Shown: piece by piece, positions 1-35,733 of the stretch
Layout of the letters: each line of letters starts with the position of its first letter
Position numbering within the stretch: position 1 is the stretch's first letter
IMG/VR virus record: IMGVR_UViG_3300037493_000257
Coordinates: 1 to 35,733 of that record
From: a virus
Strand: one strand, 5' to 3'
DNA: 35,733 bases
The notes under the pieces: model-generated
What the model was told of the DNA's origin: nothing
What the model saw: the letters and a program-made list of their open reading frames with translations, nothing else
Databases searched by the model: none
Translations under genes and position numbers: made by a program

Positions 1-1521
1 CGCAGACGATCCCCGCATCCCCTTAGCTGAGTCCTTCCCGCTGTGATGCAAAATCATGAGCGCAGCGTCCTGCACGATCTTCTGGATATGCCCACAGGTC
101 ACCACAAACTGCATCATGTCTGAGGCCGAGTTCTCATCCCCGCCGCCAAATGCCCTGGCTAACGTGTCGATGATGATCAGCTTGAAGTCGATGCCGGTGT
201 CTATGACCAGATGCTCCACGGCCAGCATCAGCCCGTTGAAGTCCTCCACGCTCGATCTGAGATTGAGCTGGTGCCTGATGACGTAGATCGGTGCGCCGTC
301 CTCTGTACCGTGGTGCTGCTTGCACGCCTTAATCCTTGCGCCGACTCCCCCAAAGCCTTCCCCCGCGATATATAAAACACAGCCAGGCTCGCTGACCTCG
401 TTCCCCATCCATGGTGTACCTGTGGCGATACAGTGAGCAATATGAAGCGCATGGAAACTTTTGAAACTACCAGGTGGACCGTACAAGGCGCTGAAACTAC
501 CCACAGGCAGCACCTTATCTATCATCCAGCGCACCGGCTCGTCTTGGATGCTGTCCCAATGCTCAATGTTGATCTGCTTTGGCGGCTTGGTGGGTGGCGC
601 TGGCGCTGGCTCTGACTCAAATTCCTTGGCGATGTCCTCGGCTGGCGGTGTTGCTGTTTGCACTTCATTGATGATCGGATTCAACCTTTCGGGCATTGTT
701 ACCTGATCCACAGTGGCGATGATTTGCGCCGCCTTGACCAGCGCCACCAGCTTCTCTCTGCCTGCGCCAGCCTCAATGAATTCGTAGGCATCATCGCCCT
801 GGCCTTGCAGGCCGAGGTCTACTACCTTGACCGACTTGGCGATGGGCAGTATTGCTTGAGCCGCCTTGTGCGCGTACTGCCAGCCTGGTGTGTCGTTGTC
901 CGGCAGGATGATGACCTGAGCGCCAGCAAAGTATTCGGTGATGGCCTCCGGCCAGCTTCCGGCACCAGTGTGCGCCGTTGTGGCGATCATGCCAATGCTT
1001 GTGATGGCATCCGCGGCTTTCTCGCCTTCCACAAGGAAGATGTTCCTGCCTGCGGTCTTCGCGTCCAGCAGCTGCGGGAGGTTATACGGCACTATGCGGG
1101 CATCTCCAAGGCTTGTGGAGCGTCTGCCATCACTATCAACTTTGTAGAGTCTATAAGTCTTTCCAGACTCCCCTACCTTGTACCGCTGCTTGACGAACAC
1201 CGTTGTCCTGTCCTCGTCCTGGTACTGCCACTCCTGTTCTAGGACGTTGCGCGGTATCGGCTTGATGTTGGCGAGTGGGTCGGGACGCTCCATGAGTTCC
1301 GGCAACAGGTGCAGTTCCCTGATGGTCTGGAACACGTCCTCCTGTGAGCATCCACCATGACAGTGGAACAGCGGCTTGCCCTCGTCATTGATGTCTATGC
1401 TGAGTGATGGATTCTTGTCGCCGTTACCCTTACCGTGACCAGGTACAGGGCAGCTGGCTACCCACTGACCGTTTGCTTTCTTTGCGTTGCCGAGCGTCTT
1501 GGCTATTTGTTCTGCTTGCAT
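1..1521 (-). CDS. Primase-helicase, N-terminal 507 codons (cut by window start)
   Basis: This is the 5' part of a 682-aa replication protein; the rest lies at 35076-35733 once the circle is closed. The frame is open from the ATG at 1521 to base 1. Visible domains in order: a zinc-binding primase motif (C24, H29, C54, C58), a Toprim domain (VEGEKAAD with E165/E167, then LPDND with D208/D210), a Pro-rich linker (about 290-318), and a RecA-like ATPase with Walker A GPPGSFKS (348-355) and Walker B LIIID (D452). This order is known from phage primase-helicases that lay primers and unwind the fork. The start overlaps the 3' end of the cytosine methyltransferase gene by 19 bp, which suggests translational coupling. 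No phage DNA polymerase gene accompanies it, so a host polymerase presumably extends its primers. Family assignment is strong; details of priming are inferred. Confidence 0.93.
   Translation of the reverse strand, partial: MQAEQIAKTLGNAKKANGQWVASCPVPGHGKGNGDKNPSLSIDINDEGKPLFHCHGGCSQEDVFQTIRELHLLPELMERPDPLANIKPIPRNVLEQEWQYQDEDRTTVFVKQRYKVGESGKTYRLYKVDSDGRRSTSLGDARIVPYNLPQLLDAKTAGRNIFLVEGEKAADAITSIGMIATTAHTGAGSWPEAITEYFAGAQVIILPDNDTPGWQYAHKAAQAILPIAKSVKVVDLGLQGQGDDAYEFIEAGAGREKLVALVKAAQIIATVDQVTMPERLNPIINEVQTATPPAEDIAKEFESEPAPAPPTKPPKQINIEHWDSIQDEPVRWMIDKVLPVGSFSALYGPPGSFKSFHALHIAHCIATGTPWMGNEVSEPGCVLYIAGEGFGGVGARIKACKQHHGTEDGAPIYVIRHQLNLRSSVEDFNGLMLAVEHLVIDTGIDFKLIIIDTLARAFGGGDENSASDMMQFVVTCGHIQKIVQDAALMILHHSGKDSAKGMRGSSA
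5..130. repeat. Terminal overlap, left copy (circular closure)
   Basis: Bases 5-130 are identical to 35608-35733. The repeat lies inside the primase-helicase gene and restores its frame when the ends are joined (2049 bp in total). That fits an assembly overlap of a circular or circularly permuted genome better than packaged terminal repeats. Bases 1 and 4 differ from the corresponding bases 35604 and 35607. Confidence 0.9.
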
Positions 1522-4973: not shown

Positions 4974-5439
4974 GCTTGATCCCCCATGCAGCGATCAGCG
5001 CAGCATCAGCGCGGCCATCATCCTTAACGCGCTTGAAGTCACTCTGATTGTTTGGAAATAGTTCCATGGCGCGAGCGCGGCTGGCATCCTTGCCTGGCGC
5101 ACGGCCAATGCCCTTAGTCCATGTGGCTGGTGCTACATAAGTCACTTGCAGTTTGAACGCGGCCAAAATGCCCTCGATCATGCCAAAGCTGCGGCCAAAG
5201 CTGAAGACGCTGGTAACGCCTTGGCCTGCCATTGCTCCCACGCGCTCGCAGTAGACATGGCAATCGTCAGACTTCATGACGTAAATCATTTCAGCCAACT
5301 CGCTGGCGCTGACTTGCCGCTTGGCTTTGCCATTGCGGTCAATCGTCATGGTTGGCATATCAAAGACGCGCAGACTGTCAGTGCCATTGATAACCGCCAC
5401 GGCACCAGATAGGCCAGGATCAATTCCGATTACTCTCAT
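4966..5439 (-). CDS. RuvC-like Holliday-junction resolvase
   Basis: A 157-aa RNase H-fold nuclease. The acidic residues expected for the RuvC active site are visible: GIDPGLSG with D7, YCERVG with E65, and KDDGRADAALIA with D141 and D145. The central GQGVTSVFSFGRSFG stretch is typical of phage RuvC-like proteins. It would cut four-way junctions and branched DNA before packaging. The ATG at 5439 overlaps the HTH gene stop (ATGA). A longer frame reaches back to 5598, but it runs through the HTH gene and lacks family similarity, so 5439 is chosen. Confidence 0.9.
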   Translation of the reverse strand: MRVIGIDPGLSGAVAVINGTDSLRVFDMPTMTIDRNGKAKRQVSASELAEMIYVMKSDDCHVYCERVGAMAGQGVTSVFSFGRSFGMIEGILAAFKLQVTYVAPATWTKGIGRAPGKDASRARAMELFPNNQSDFKRVKDDGRADAALIAAWGIKHG

Positions 5440-5690
5440 TTGACGGCATCCTCCATGGCCTTGTTGAGTACCTGTAGCCTTGCAGTGATGAGCGCGTCTG
5501 CGGCCTGCTCCAAGCGGATGACGGTGCTGTAAAGTGGCTCGGTCTGACCGTTTACCCAGCGCGATAGCTGCGCCTGGTCGATCTCTGCGACTCGGCACAA
5601 GTCCGACATCCGGTAACCGGCTGACTCAATCTTGTGCTTGATGTCTTGAATTGCTTGCTGTGAGACTTTCATGTTTACAATGTTAACCAT
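5436..5690 (-). CDS. Helix-turn-helix transcriptional regulator (Cro/C1-like)
   Basis: An 84-aa protein with a helix-turn-helix of the lambda-repressor/Cro type: SDLCRVAEIDQAQLSRWVNG forms the two helices, with the W-x-N-G turn typical of recognition helices. It is the first gene of the leftward replication operon and faces the rightward early operon across a 200-bp control region, the classic site for a switch regulator. Neither the ATG at 5690 nor the ATG at 5672 has a Shine-Dalgarno site. A promoter-like pair at 5709-5680 would start RNA near 5672, so a leaderless message with a 78-aa product is possible. An imperfect palindrome over the start suggests autoregulation. Confidence 0.8.
   Translation of the reverse strand: MVNIVNMKVSQQAIQDIKHKIESAGYRMSDLCRVAEIDQAQLSRWVNGQTEPLYSTVIRLEQAADALITARLQVLNKAMEDAVK
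5673..5687. promoter_or_regulatory. Imperfect palindrome at the HTH gene start (possible operator)
   Basis: GTTTACAATGTTAAC is a 15-bp palindrome with one mismatched pair around a single centre base. It overlaps the proposed minus-strand -10 and the first codons of the HTH regulator gene, a position suited to autoregulation. Function is inferred from position only. Confidence 0.4.
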
Positions 5691-31957: not shown

Positions 31958-33430
31958 TTATGCAACCCTAGACAGGTTTCTTTTCAACGGCTGTCCCCAC
32001 TTGGTGCTAGCTTTGCTCCCCATCATGCCGATTACAGCGTCAGAGGCAAACGTCAAACAAAACGCATCAGCCTTGTCAGGCGAGGCCAAACCCCGCTTCT
32101 TGATCTCGTCCTTGCTCTCAATCTGAATCTTGCCGTTACTCGTAAACATATACCTCACGGTCGCCAACTCAGCCACCAGCAGCTCATCCTTTGGCAGCCG
32201 ACAGTCGCGCTGCTCCAGCCACGCCTTGGCTTTGTACCAAAGCTCAGCCTTCAGATTCCGGTACGTCCCGCCCATGGCCGGACTCTCGCTGACGTTGATC
32301 CCGCGAGCCGGCAGCCCCAATTCTTTCAACCGATCCACCACTCCGGCGCCAAGCCCAATGCTGTCCACCAGTATCTCTTCCGGCCTGTCGCTTGGCGGCA
32401 ACGCCTCAAACTCAGCCACCACCGCACCAGTCAACTGCATCAAGTCCAAATTCTTCCAGGTCTTAATCGGCTCGATCACCGCGTTCCCCCTGCGCTTGCA
32501 CAGCGCCGAACGGTCAGAGCCAAACCTCGCCACGTCCAATCCCCAGACCAGCGGCGCGTAAGGACTCGCCACTACGTCCCGATTCATCGCCAATTCCAGC
32601 AACTCCATGGGAATAACCGTGTCCTCGTCACTGCGCGGGAATTCACCCAGCACGCGAATGCGGTAGGCGTTGCTCTCCTCGCCGTACCGCGCCTTCATCT
32701 CCTCAATGTAAGCCTCACTCACCCTCGGCGAGTCGGCGCAGGACACCTTCATCGTCACCCAATCCCCCGCCAGACGGTTATGCGTGTCAAAGAAGAACCC
32801 GCTTGATCTCACCGGATTACCCAGCAGCAACGTCACAGCGTTATGCCCCGACATACTTCCACTGGCCGCCTCAAACACCTTCTCCGGTATACCGCTGGCC
32901 TCATCCCCCACCAGCATCACATGGTCGCTGTGAACCCCTTGCAACGCCTCGGGCTGCTCTGCCCTCGATGTCCGCGCTGAGATAAACGCCTCCTCGTTGG
33001 CATCCTTCACCTCAATCCTGTCCTGCTTCACCTCCAACATATCAGCCAGCATCGGCGGCAGCACCTTCACCCACCGCTTCACCTCCGCAAACAGCGCGTC
33101 ATACAGCTGGCTGCTTGTTGGTGCCGTCACCACCACCTTCACCGGAAACCTCAGCAGCAAGTACCAGATCATCGCCCAGGCTGACGCGGTGGACTTGCCC
33201 ACTCCATGGCCCGATCTGACAGAGATACGCCGGTTGCCCTTGGCAATGTGATTCAAGAACTCCACCTGCCACGGGTCAGGCTCAGTGTTCAGCACCTCGC
33301 GGACAAACAGCACAGGGTTGTTCTTGTACAGCTTGACGAATTCGACAAATGGATTGTTTACCAGCAAGTCCTCGGATTTTTTTTTCGGGACGCGCGGTTT
33401 CGTAGCAGTAGGGGGTAGGGGGTCGGTCAT
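31958..33430 (-). CDS. terL: Terminase large subunit
   Basis: A 490-aa packaging motor. ATPase: Walker A GHGVGKST (74-81), Walker B VMLVGDEA (D176, E177). Nuclease (RNase H fold): LVWGLDVARFG with D299, EILVDSIG with D356, and DKADAF with D452/D455. Length and order are normal. It would cut and pump concatemeric DNA through the portal. The N terminus is Pro/Lys-rich and the gene has no clear Shine-Dalgarno site in front of the ATG at 33430. A C-rich stretch follows the start. The candidate origin lies directly upstream, between terL and terS. Confidence 0.95.
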   Translation of the reverse strand: MTDPLPPTATKPRVPKKKSEDLLVNNPFVEFVKLYKNNPVLFVREVLNTEPDPWQVEFLNHIAKGNRRISVRSGHGVGKSTASAWAMIWYLLLRFPVKVVVTAPTSSQLYDALFAEVKRWVKVLPPMLADMLEVKQDRIEVKDANEEAFISARTSRAEQPEALQGVHSDHVMLVGDEASGIPEKVFEAASGSMSGHNAVTLLLGNPVRSSGFFFDTHNRLAGDWVTMKVSCADSPRVSEAYIEEMKARYGEESNAYRIRVLGEFPRSDEDTVIPMELLELAMNRDVVASPYAPLVWGLDVARFGSDRSALCKRRGNAVIEPIKTWKNLDLMQLTGAVVAEFEALPPSDRPEEILVDSIGLGAGVVDRLKELGLPARGINVSESPAMGGTYRNLKAELWYKAKAWLEQRDCRLPKDELLVAELATVRYMFTSNGKIQIESKDEIKKRGLASPDKADAFCLTFASDAVIGMMGSKASTKWGQPLKRNLSRVA

Positions 33431-33569
33431 GTGGTTATGGCTGTGGGATTCGGTAGGTGTTCGGTTGCATCATCAGCTGCCCCCGCCAAAACCAGCGATG
33501 GGGGGGTCGCCGCCGCCCACGGCCAGCGGCACGCTCCAGCGCCAGCAGCGGCCACTTTACCGCTGAAAG

Positions 33570-33774
33570 TTATCCACAATCCACTATTCATGCAAGTCAT
33601 TGATCTATATGCTTTCTTACAGAATGCTTACATATTCCATTTAACACGATGTCCATTATGTTAAGTCAATTGTGGATAACTGACCAGTATTTGCTCAACA
33701 AACAGGCAGAGTTGAGTTATCCACAGGGCAATGTGATCAATCATGGCTCAATCGTGCCTCTCGCCTGTGGATAA
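33570..33774. other. Candidate replication origin with four DnaA boxes
   Basis: Four perfect DnaA boxes (TTATCCACA or its complement) lie at 33570-33578 (+), 33671-33679 (-), 33717-33725 (+) and 33766-33774 (-). All share AGTTATCCACA. Boxes 3 and 4 are inverted copies of TGAGTTATCCACAGG. Box 4 lies within the last codons of terS; the others are in the 317-bp non-coding gap 33431-33747. An AT-rich stretch with GATCTATATG (33600-33668) lies between boxes 1 and 2 and could be the unwinding element. Together this looks like a DnaA-dependent origin. The rest of the gap holds a G7 run and a GC-rich stretch near terL. Confidence 0.8.
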
Positions 33775-34182
33775 CTCATCGACAACCTCGACATGGCGCA
33801 GCGCGGCCATGCGTAGGTCTTGGATGTTTATGTTAATCGAGGCTGCTTTTTGTAAGCCGTAAGTCTTCTGATCCCATCGCTCGGCCAGCCATTGCCTCGT
33901 TCGGATGCGCTGGACATCGCGCTGCGCGTGATCGACATCCATGCCGTCCGCTATCTCTATCGTCTCACAGGCCATCAGGTCTGCCGCACGCGTGCGCGCG
34001 CGTGCAATCATAGCACCGTGATCATTTTCCTCAATCCAATCGTCTAGCGCACGTTTGCTAATGCCCAAGCTGATGCAGATATTGGCAATGCTTTTGCCGG
34101 CCTCAACCATGCTGAAGATCATCTCTTCCGGCATATCGTTGAGGAATGCGACATCCTGCTTACGTTTTGGGTTACCAACCAC
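33748..34182 (-). CDS. terS: Terminase small subunit
   Basis: A 144-aa DNA-recognition subunit of the packaging motor. The N-terminal HTH is visible (MVEAGKSIANICISLGISKRALDDWI), then the helical oligomerisation part (ARARTRAADLMACETIEIADG) and RIRTRQWLAERWDQKTYG, the usual end of this family. The start is GTG at 34182 with a perfect AGGAGGG site 7-8 bases before it. The 3' end contains one DnaA box. The upstream gene ends 57 bp away. Confidence 0.88.
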   Translation of the reverse strand: MVGNPKRKQDVAFLNDMPEEMIFSMVEAGKSIANICISLGISKRALDDWIEENDHGAMIARARTRAADLMACETIEIADGMDVDHAQRDVQRIRTRQWLAERWDQKTYGLQKAASININIQDLRMAALRHVEVVDELSTGERHD

Positions 34183-34239: not shown

Positions 34240-34923
34240 TTAATTCGCTGCATTCTTCATTCTCCCTGCGAGTTTCGTATCAAACTTCTTTTCCATGACT
34301 TCATTGTCATCGAATTTCAAGTCGTTTTCAAAGTCATCAAATCCTGTTGCACCGCCTAGCTTGAAGTCTGGCGCTGGTTTGAATGCTGTGACTTTGGCTG
34401 TTGGGAATAGTGCTTTAATTTTGATGACTTGCTGCATACGCTCATCGGCCAACAGTGCCTCGATCTCTTCCATGCTCCAGATGTTCTGATTACTGATGTC
34501 TTGACGCTCCCGCTGTATTGCCACGGCCTCGTTGACAGTTCTGACAATGACCATGACCTGGCCGTTTTGCATTTCCCACTCAATCCTTGGGATGCTGTCG
34601 CTGGCTGGTGATATGCCTTGATCGGCTGCCCACTGATCCAGCACGCCATACGCTCTAATCATTCCCGCCAGGCTTGAATCGAATTTCGCCTGATCCTTTG
34701 CCGTGACTGTTTGCTGCAATCTGGCGTTCTGAATCCAGAATTTCTCTCTAAGTTGACTGTCAACTAAAGTAATCAGTCGATTTTCTCCCCATTTCCTGTC
34801 ACTGACTGCCTTGGCTGACTCCAACTCCACCAGTTTGGATTGAACGTAAATCGTCCAAGGGTCTGCTTGTTGGCTTGGACTCGTTGCTGGTGGATGCTGT
34901 CTACTCTTTTGCTTAGTTGCCAT
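34240..34923 (-). CDS. Unknown protein before the terminase genes
   Basis: A 227-aa protein. It starts with a basic, Gln/Pro-rich segment, then helices (NRLITLVDSQLREKFWIQNARLQQTV), a strand-like WEMQNGQVMVIVRTV and an acidic end with FDDFENDLKFDDNEV. No family is recognised. It is the first gene after the iteron region, so it would be the first product of any transcript starting there. The order (iterons, this gene, terS) makes a regulator or packaging/replication factor possible. AAAGGA lies before the ATG. Confidence 0.75.
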   Translation of the reverse strand: MATKQKSRQHPPATSPSQQADPWTIYVQSKLVELESAKAVSDRKWGENRLITLVDSQLREKFWIQNARLQQTVTAKDQAKFDSSLAGMIRAYGVLDQWAADQGISPASDSIPRIEWEMQNGQVMVIVRTVNEAVAIQRERQDISNQNIWSMEEIEALLADERMQQVIKIKALFPTAKVTAFKPAPDFKLGGATGFDDFENDLKFDDNEVMEKKFDTKLAGRMKNAAN

Positions 34924-35075: not shown

Positions 35076-35733
35076 TCAAAAAGACTCATTGTCTACAGTC
35101 TTATGAAGCATCCATACCCATTCATCTCTCATATCCATAAGTTTATGAGTTGTCAGTTTCTCCTTAGCGCGAGACCATGCTTTGTCAAATGTTTTGTCTC
35201 CGCTTGGTTTGCGTCCTAATTTCGCCCTGAATTCGAGTTCCCAATCTTCTATTAAGACGCACATTCTCTGCGTACCCTCCATAGCCTTTAGCATTCCTTT
35301 TTGTTTAATCACATTCTCTAAACAGTTCAATGCTTTCAACTCTTGTGCGGTAAGTTTTGATCCACTGCTGGCGTTATTTTTCTTGTCATCAAGCGCACCT
35401 ACCTCTTTACCCTGTACCGCCAGGCTTGTGATCGGCTCGCCAATATGCAGTGATCCAGCTGGCGGCGCGAGTTCCACGCTGACCATCTCAAAGCCGATTC
35501 TTGTGCCGTCCTCGCCGTCCTTTTGCTTAGCAATGCGGATGATTCCACTCATGCTGTCTTCAAAGCGGATCAGTTCCAACTCACTATCCACCGCCCCTAG
35601 CAATGCTGACGATCCCCGCATCCCCTTAGCTGAGTCCTTCCCGCTGTGATGCAAAATCATGAGCGCAGCGTCCTGCACGATCTTCTGGATATGCCCACAG
35701 GTCACCACAAACTGCATCATGTCTGAGGCCGAG
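35076..35733 (-). CDS. Primase-helicase, C-terminal part (continues at window start)
   Basis: The 3' part of the gene that starts at 1521. Joined over the overlap it gives 682 aa. This part holds residues from about 465: ILHHSGKDSAKGMRGSSAL (H492/H493, R503), the RepA/AAA_25-type motif that follows Walker B in RecA-like hexameric helicases and contains the arginine near the neighbouring ATP site. The last 130 residues have a helical region (LTAQELKALNCLENVI) and a winged-helix-like end (KPSGDKTFDKAWSRAKEKL, EWVWML). The stop at 35076 is next to the iteron region, and a TATATA box lies 10 bp beyond. Confidence 0.9.
   Translation of the reverse strand, partial: SASDMMQFVVTCGHIQKIVQDAALMILHHSGKDSAKGMRGSSALLGAVDSELELIRFEDSMSGIIRIAKQKDGEDGTRIGFEMVSVELAPPAGSLHIGEPITSLAVQGKEVGALDDKKNNASSGSKLTAQELKALNCLENVIKQKGMLKAMEGTQRMCVLIEDWELEFRAKLGRKPSGDKTFDKAWSRAKEKLTTHKLMDMRDEWVWMLHKTVDNESF
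35608..35733. repeat. Terminal overlap, right copy (circular closure)
   Basis: Identical to bases 5-130 (126 bp). Bases 35607 and 35604 differ from bases 4 and 1; both changes fall in third codon positions of the primase-helicase gene and are silent (Ser TCA/TCT, Ala GCA/GCG). Confidence 0.9.

Follow-up and report, generated by a model that had tools for sequence, protein, structure and literature searches.

A conserved DnaA-box array beside the primase-helicase gene of a phage, and its likely role as a replication origin of the oriC type

Results

The locus and its four DnaA boxes

The window, by which we mean the whole stretch of DNA that was analysed (35,733 nucleotides; IMG/VR virus record IMGVR_UViG_3300037493_000257), carries on its minus strand a large terminase gene, terL (31958..33430; phrog_2, 1e-47), and the gene for an Sf6-like small terminase, terS (33748..34182; Pfam PF20901, 1e-13; phrog_1482, 1e-14), with a gap between them that holds the array described here. 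Also on the minus strand are the gene for a conserved partner protein of unknown function (34240..34923), which is found beside the array in both of the phage groups described below, and the C-terminal part of a primase-helicase (35076..35733). The reading frame of the latter continues across the joined contig ends into its N-terminal part, comprising a primase region and an AAA_25 helicase (1..1521, minus strand, with the start at 1521 inferred). An overlap of 128/130 bp between the contig ends would fit a genome of roughly 35.6 kb that is either closed or permuted.

Positions 33570-33774 (205 bp) contain four perfect TTATCCACA DnaA boxes in alternating orientation, all of which have AGTTATCCACA in common. 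Box A (33766..33774, minus strand) lies within the last terS codons, as Leu-Ser-Thr (TTA TCC ACA), and makes a 15-bp perfect inverted pair (33713-33727/33764-33778) with box B (33717..33725, plus strand). Box C (33671..33679, minus strand) flanks an AT-rich core and lies 101 bp, start-to-start, from box D (33570..33578, plus strand). A second inverted pair of 18 bp, with 89% identity, was found at 33568-33585/33664-33681. The pattern TTATNCACA matched the window 5 times versus an expectation of 0.89, a number reached by 0/100 shuffles, and the approximate chance of four such boxes falling inside 205 bp of this window was 2e-8.

An earlier note, made by reading the letters without database searches, had described four nine-of-nine boxes of alternating orientation in about 205 bp, and a sequence search confirmed this. 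Its further observations, of a sequence shared by all the boxes and of the 15-bp inverted pair, both held, as did those of an AT-rich stretch beside the boxes (68% AT from box D to box C) and of one box within the coding end of terS (33766-33774, in the minus-strand ORF 33748-34182). Its view that the cluster was not due to chance also stood, given the probability of about 2e-8 and the retention of the boxes in relatives.

A conserved core and an IHF-type site lie between boxes C and D

The stretch from box D to box C (33579..33670) is 68% AT and is a candidate unwinding region, its least stable 80-mer ranking in the top 0.5% of the window. Three minus-strand features lie here between boxes C and D, and alignment of relatives showed all three to be conserved: a core dyad, TTAACATAATGGACATCGTGTTAA (33641..33664); a pair of GTAAG repeats in helical phase, spaced by 11 bp (33616..33631); and an IHF-type site, GATCAATGACTTG (33593..33605), which matches 12/13 positions of WATCAANNNNTTR and so has one mismatch in the window. 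The IHF-type site and the conserved core had been overlooked by the earlier note.

In 15 long relatives the left part of the core dyad, ACATAATGNNNNTNGT, was single-copy, save for a contig-end repeat in G009. The distance from the single-copy core to the AAA_25 helicase domain was about 1.3-2.7 kb in those long genomes in which both could be placed. AT content was highest over the core in both phage groups. Across 123 distinct elements the match to the IHF consensus at the same offset was perfect in 102/123 and had one mismatch in 15, whilst shuffled controls gave a perfect match in 0.14%. This offset was either 56/57 or 66/67 bp, values that are one helical turn apart. The GTAAG spacing was 11 bp in 91 elements, a count that is partly a product of selection since GTAAG pairs belonged to the pattern used in the core scan described below.

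The boxes are under selection in related phages

Box positions were counted in 81 records, comprising one phage record and 80 viral contigs whose TerL is related. This gave 176 TTATNCACA boxes in 48 kb upstream of terL, versus 3 in 445 kb elsewhere. A whole-record search of 20 of these relatives returned few box matches outside the cluster. In alignments the gap sequence drifted and the spacings between boxes moved, whilst the boxes themselves stayed; the prediction that boxes would be conserved as the gap drifted was therefore strongly borne out. Among close relatives in which boxes C and D are both retained in the orientation seen here, their 101-bp spacing was constant. Box B was TTATCCACA, TTATGCACA or TTGTCCACA in relatives, the box variants being mostly ones that DnaA tolerates (TTATGCACA, TTGTCCACA). 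In distant relatives box D was swapped for a nearby TTATCCACA or TTGTCCACA in the opposite orientation, so that a box was kept though its orientation changed.

The terS codons that form box A (TTA, TCC, ACA) had entropies of 0.00-0.09 bits, versus a mean codon entropy of 1.29. No lower values occurred among the 35 positions compared across 95 terS sequences, all of them well conserved and at least fourfold degenerate. Such freezing at synonymous sites indicates selection on the DNA and not on the protein.

IMG/VR was also scanned with a pattern drawn from the core only and free of any DnaA box, which recovered at least 119 stretches. Every one of the 88 distinct core-found elements with enough flanking sequence (88/88) had at least two boxes (TTRTNCACA) within 320 bp, when about 8% of random windows from the same loci hold any box, a background which itself includes elements. 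All the elements found are related, and the counts are thus not independent events. In two contigs (L222 and L268) the core was reversed between terS and terL, and an extra box cluster was seen upstream of terS. Searches for DNA similarity to the array in phage and plasmid collections gave no real match, and Rfam had no match for it.

These data bear on the simplest alternative, that the boxes are a chance or functionless by-product of sequence. Nothing favours this apart from the general frequency of 9-mers, and it is all but excluded by the probability calculated for the window, by conservation across 80 relatives and by the frozen synonymous codons.

Cumulative GC skew did not turn at the array (33.6 kb), and third-codon skew gave no two-arm signal (p = 0.66). 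A turn near 33.6 kb had been predicted in advance, and this prediction failed. However, the test is a weak one of low power: skew follows transcription, which runs in the same direction for nearly all genes.

Replication genes of the window and its relatives

The primase-helicase of the window matched PHROG primase families and Pfam AAA_25, and an AAA_25 helicase was present in 15/16 genomes; this helicase is RepA-like, not DnaB. The window also encodes a DUF2800/PD-(D/E)XK exonuclease and a RuvC-like resolvase. PolA (PF00476) was not detected in any of the 16 genomes searched, DnaA (PF00308) had no match in the window, and a scan of the large ORFs found no polymerase except for a primase-family label. 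No Rep initiator family was matched among the proteins scanned, which did not include all ORFs and leave 34240-34923 unassigned. That no polymerase was recognised is consistent with use of the host enzyme but does not show it. The earlier claim that no phage initiator or DNA polymerase gene is visible therefore held for the PolA and DnaA-domain searches, other polymerase families not having been searched singly. The claim that the phage supplies its own primase-helicase held as regards presence of the gene, in which the primase is fused to the AAA_25 helicase.

Elsewhere, a weak DnaA-domain match in genome G425 was taken as spurious, since its frame overlaps an ORF judged from its sequence to be DEAD/DEAH-type helicase-like; G423 also gave a weak match. 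The replication gene block of the window includes a C-5 cytosine DNA methyltransferase (1503-2951) for which some relatives gave no match. A small Cro/CI-type HTH protein is encoded at 5436-5690, yet no integrase was found; neither integrase nor ParA was detected in 15 genomes.

The partner protein (34240-34923) matched no Pfam or PHROG family. Its predicted structure (pLDDT 76) had no fold match in the PDB and matched viral relatives only. Twenty columns were invariant in an alignment of 54 sequences.

The array follows the helicase and partner genes, not the terminase genes

The array lay between terS and terL in the majority of contigs recovered by the core scan. In a second group of loci (for example L105, L110, L111, L113, L131, L146, L152, L165, L168 and L170) the primase-helicase and/or a homolog of the partner gene lies upstream of the array, and no homolog of the window TerS or TerL was found by tblastn (1e-4). 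Several of these loci have 5-12 kb of downstream sequence, still without a TerS or TerL homolog. L131, the single second-group locus examined in full, has the order primase, partner gene, array, HNH gene, presumed TerS and TerL. Its TerL shares 24% identity with that of the window over 119 aa, its partner gene is 41% identical, and its presumed TerS was assigned by position only and shows no similarity to that of the window. On its left side the L131 array carries three boxes, two of them in tandem, and on its right side two.

Given that the array is kept with the helicase and partner genes where homologs of TerS and TerL were not found, we conclude that it is part of the replication module and lies only incidentally between terS and terL. 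It had been suggested beforehand that the box within terS links the origin to the packaging genes; this link is incidental, as the array follows the helicase and partner gene even where no recognisable homologs of TerS and TerL are present.

Three contigs (L072, L076 and L078) have a gene inserted between array and terL, parting them; in L072 and L076 we take it, from inspection of its sequence, to be an acetyltransferase. The record MW202879, whose TerL is 68% identical, has no box by terL. It carries two TTATCCACA boxes, 120 bp apart, beside a repA-like gene, without a match to the core or to the IHF consensus.

The gene order also bears on two further readings. The first is that the array is a cos or pac packaging site, with the repeats serving as small-terminase sites alongside an IHF site and a GC-rich segment beside terL as the cut site. 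In its favour, the array lies between terS and terL, and a GC-rich segment with a C-run and a G-run (33440-33560) lies beside terL and is conserved in aligned relatives. Lambda cosB also combines repeats with an IHF site. The minus strand of 33440-33560 includes GGGCGGCGACC, which may resemble the lambda cos overhang. The predicted RNA fold of this terL-side segment was not more stable than those of shuffles (z -0.32). Against the packaging reading, the same array occurs with a TerS of no detectable similarity and a TerL only 24% identical over 119 aa, the repeats match and vary as DnaA boxes do, and inspection of contig ends showed no fixed break here. A packaging site should be tied to its cognate terminase, but the array is kept at loci in which homologs of TerS and TerL were not found. 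The terminase swap largely refutes this reading, and we regard it as very unlikely.

The second is a control region for the late operon, at which DnaA and IHF would switch transcription from replication to terminase and head genes. DnaA is a known regulator of transcription (PMC5742627), and in both groups the array sits at the boundary of replication and packaging genes, with terminase and head genes downstream. Against this, a scan of the array for sigma-70-like promoters and terminators returned no more than shuffled sequences would, and L072 and L076 have another gene between the array and terL. DnaA-regulated promoters, moreover, usually show less than four to nine boxes together with an AT-rich core. 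We consider this explanation unlikely.

Discussion

A probable replication origin on the oriC plan

Of the features to be asked of an origin of the oriC type, the locus has three: a conserved cluster of consensus boxes beyond chance expectation; a site for IHF, or an equivalent bending protein, between the boxes (the copy in the window having its one mismatch); and an easily unwound AT-rich element adjoining the boxes. The linkage of the array to the helicase, the selection on it, and the presence of boxes, IHF-type site and AT-rich core are shown. From these we think it likely that the gap is a phage replication origin built on the bacterial oriC plan and using host DnaA. The evidence is comparative only, and DnaA binding and origin activity are inferred. 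A host-DnaA-dependent origin was also the proposal of the earlier note, which is supported here as the best explanation, with binding and replication unproven.

In the mechanism we propose, host DnaA would bind the four consensus boxes, whose presence and selection are shown and whose binding is inferred. Host IHF would bend the DNA between boxes C and D and so join the flanking DnaA complexes; again the site is shown and the binding inferred. The AT-rich core between these complexes, of which the instability is shown, is inferred to melt. The phage primase-helicase, encoded within about 2 kb, would then be loaded, perhaps with help from the partner protein (34240-34923), which is a guess. Host DNA polymerase III is inferred to copy the genome because no phage polymerase was recognised.

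A rival to this scheme is that the array acts like datA or DARS, gathering host DnaA with IHF and either stimulating ATP hydrolysis or titrating DnaA. Initiation on the host chromosome would thereby stop and the replisome be freed for the phage, whose own replication would start elsewhere. In E. coli, datA has DnaA boxes clustered on both sides of one IHF site and lowers ATP-DnaA, and extra copies of it hamper initiation (PMC5742627); the phage array likewise has boxes on either side of its IHF site. However, the phage boxes enclose a conserved, melt-prone core, the array, whose core is present once per genome, is close to the replicative helicase, and no other origin candidate was found. The essential datA boxes also point in one direction (PMC5742627), whereas the phage boxes alternate and box D flips between relatives. 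On sequence alone, the array thus departs from a datA-type element, a box cluster with an IHF site in which the essential boxes point in one direction and no unwinding element is present. We judge this reading unlikely.

A bolder version of the origin hypothesis can be put forward. Here the origin family would leave initiation wholly to host DnaA and IHF; helicase, partner and origin would form a cassette swapped among phages whose packaging genes differ; as an adaptor, the partner protein (34240-34923) would direct the DnaA-opened origin to the RepA-like helicase and not to host DnaB; and DnaA-box origins of this kind may be common in uncultured phages. As a joint claim this remains tentative, and on balance we lean slightly against all of it being correct.

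Phages are generally described as supplying an initiator themselves or as redirecting host DnaB by means of phage factors, and dependence on host DnaA is known for few of them (P1, 186). If our main reading is true, a whole family that has an oriC-like site but lacks a recognised initiator would couple phage replication to the host DnaA cycle. The array would offer a compact, conserved origin for the study of DnaA and IHF outside chromosomes, and it raises the question of how DnaA loads a helicase other than DnaB.

Comparison with known systems

A search of the open-access literature turned up a single phage for which an origin with DnaA boxes had been predicted. Pseudomonas phage vB_PseuGesM_254 has DnaA boxes and an AT-rich region, predicted by Ori-Finder, at the end of its block of replication genes (PMC11512268). 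Unlike the phage of the window, it has a DNA polymerase A (PMC11512268). It is not known to share the core, and the relevant sections of that paper do not compare its boxes with those of relatives. Among viral contigs, tandem TTATCCACANNTTATCCACA boxes 11 bp apart were found in at least 120 stretches versus 2 for the reversed pattern; some of these contigs may be host or plasmid DNA. Within the IMG/VR contigs L220-L300, some clusters have 8-11 boxes (L226, L255, L265 and L272). The opinion that such origins are unusual in lytic phages thus needs qualifying, box clusters not being rare in environmental viral contigs, and it is possible that they are common in uncultured phages.

The plasmid origins of pSC101 and R6K, and P1 oriR, use host DnaA boxes and an AT-rich stretch, some with IHF (cf. 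PMC4980987). They need a plasmid Rep protein acting on iterons. In contrast, no Rep initiator was recognised in the phage, and the sole iteron-like repeats are the two GTAAG units, which may be bound by a phage protein.

The E. coli elements datA and DARS2 are non-coding and consist of a DnaA-box cluster and an IHF site, minimal datA being 262 bp (PMC5742627). The phage array differs from them in its AT-rich core, its alternating and flipping boxes and its fixed place near the helicase gene; no unwinding core is described for datA in PMC5742627.

In E. coli oriC, which has a minimal length of 245 bp, the clustered DnaA boxes have one IHF site among them and are accompanied by an AT-rich unwinding region (PMC5742627). 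That the phage core was captured from a chromosomal oriC was considered and set aside: the core pattern occurred in 0/399 genomes of one bacterial order, and neither descent from, nor similarity of the array to, a chromosomal oriC is shown. The plan is nevertheless alike, the phage array having a box cluster, an IHF-type site between boxes and an AT-rich region. It is unlike E. coli oriC in lying in a phage genome beside a phage primase-helicase, in having its AT-rich core between the boxes and not outside them, and in having mostly consensus boxes. While membership is unproven without binding or replication data, we view the array as a variation on the known oriC-like DnaA/IHF origin.
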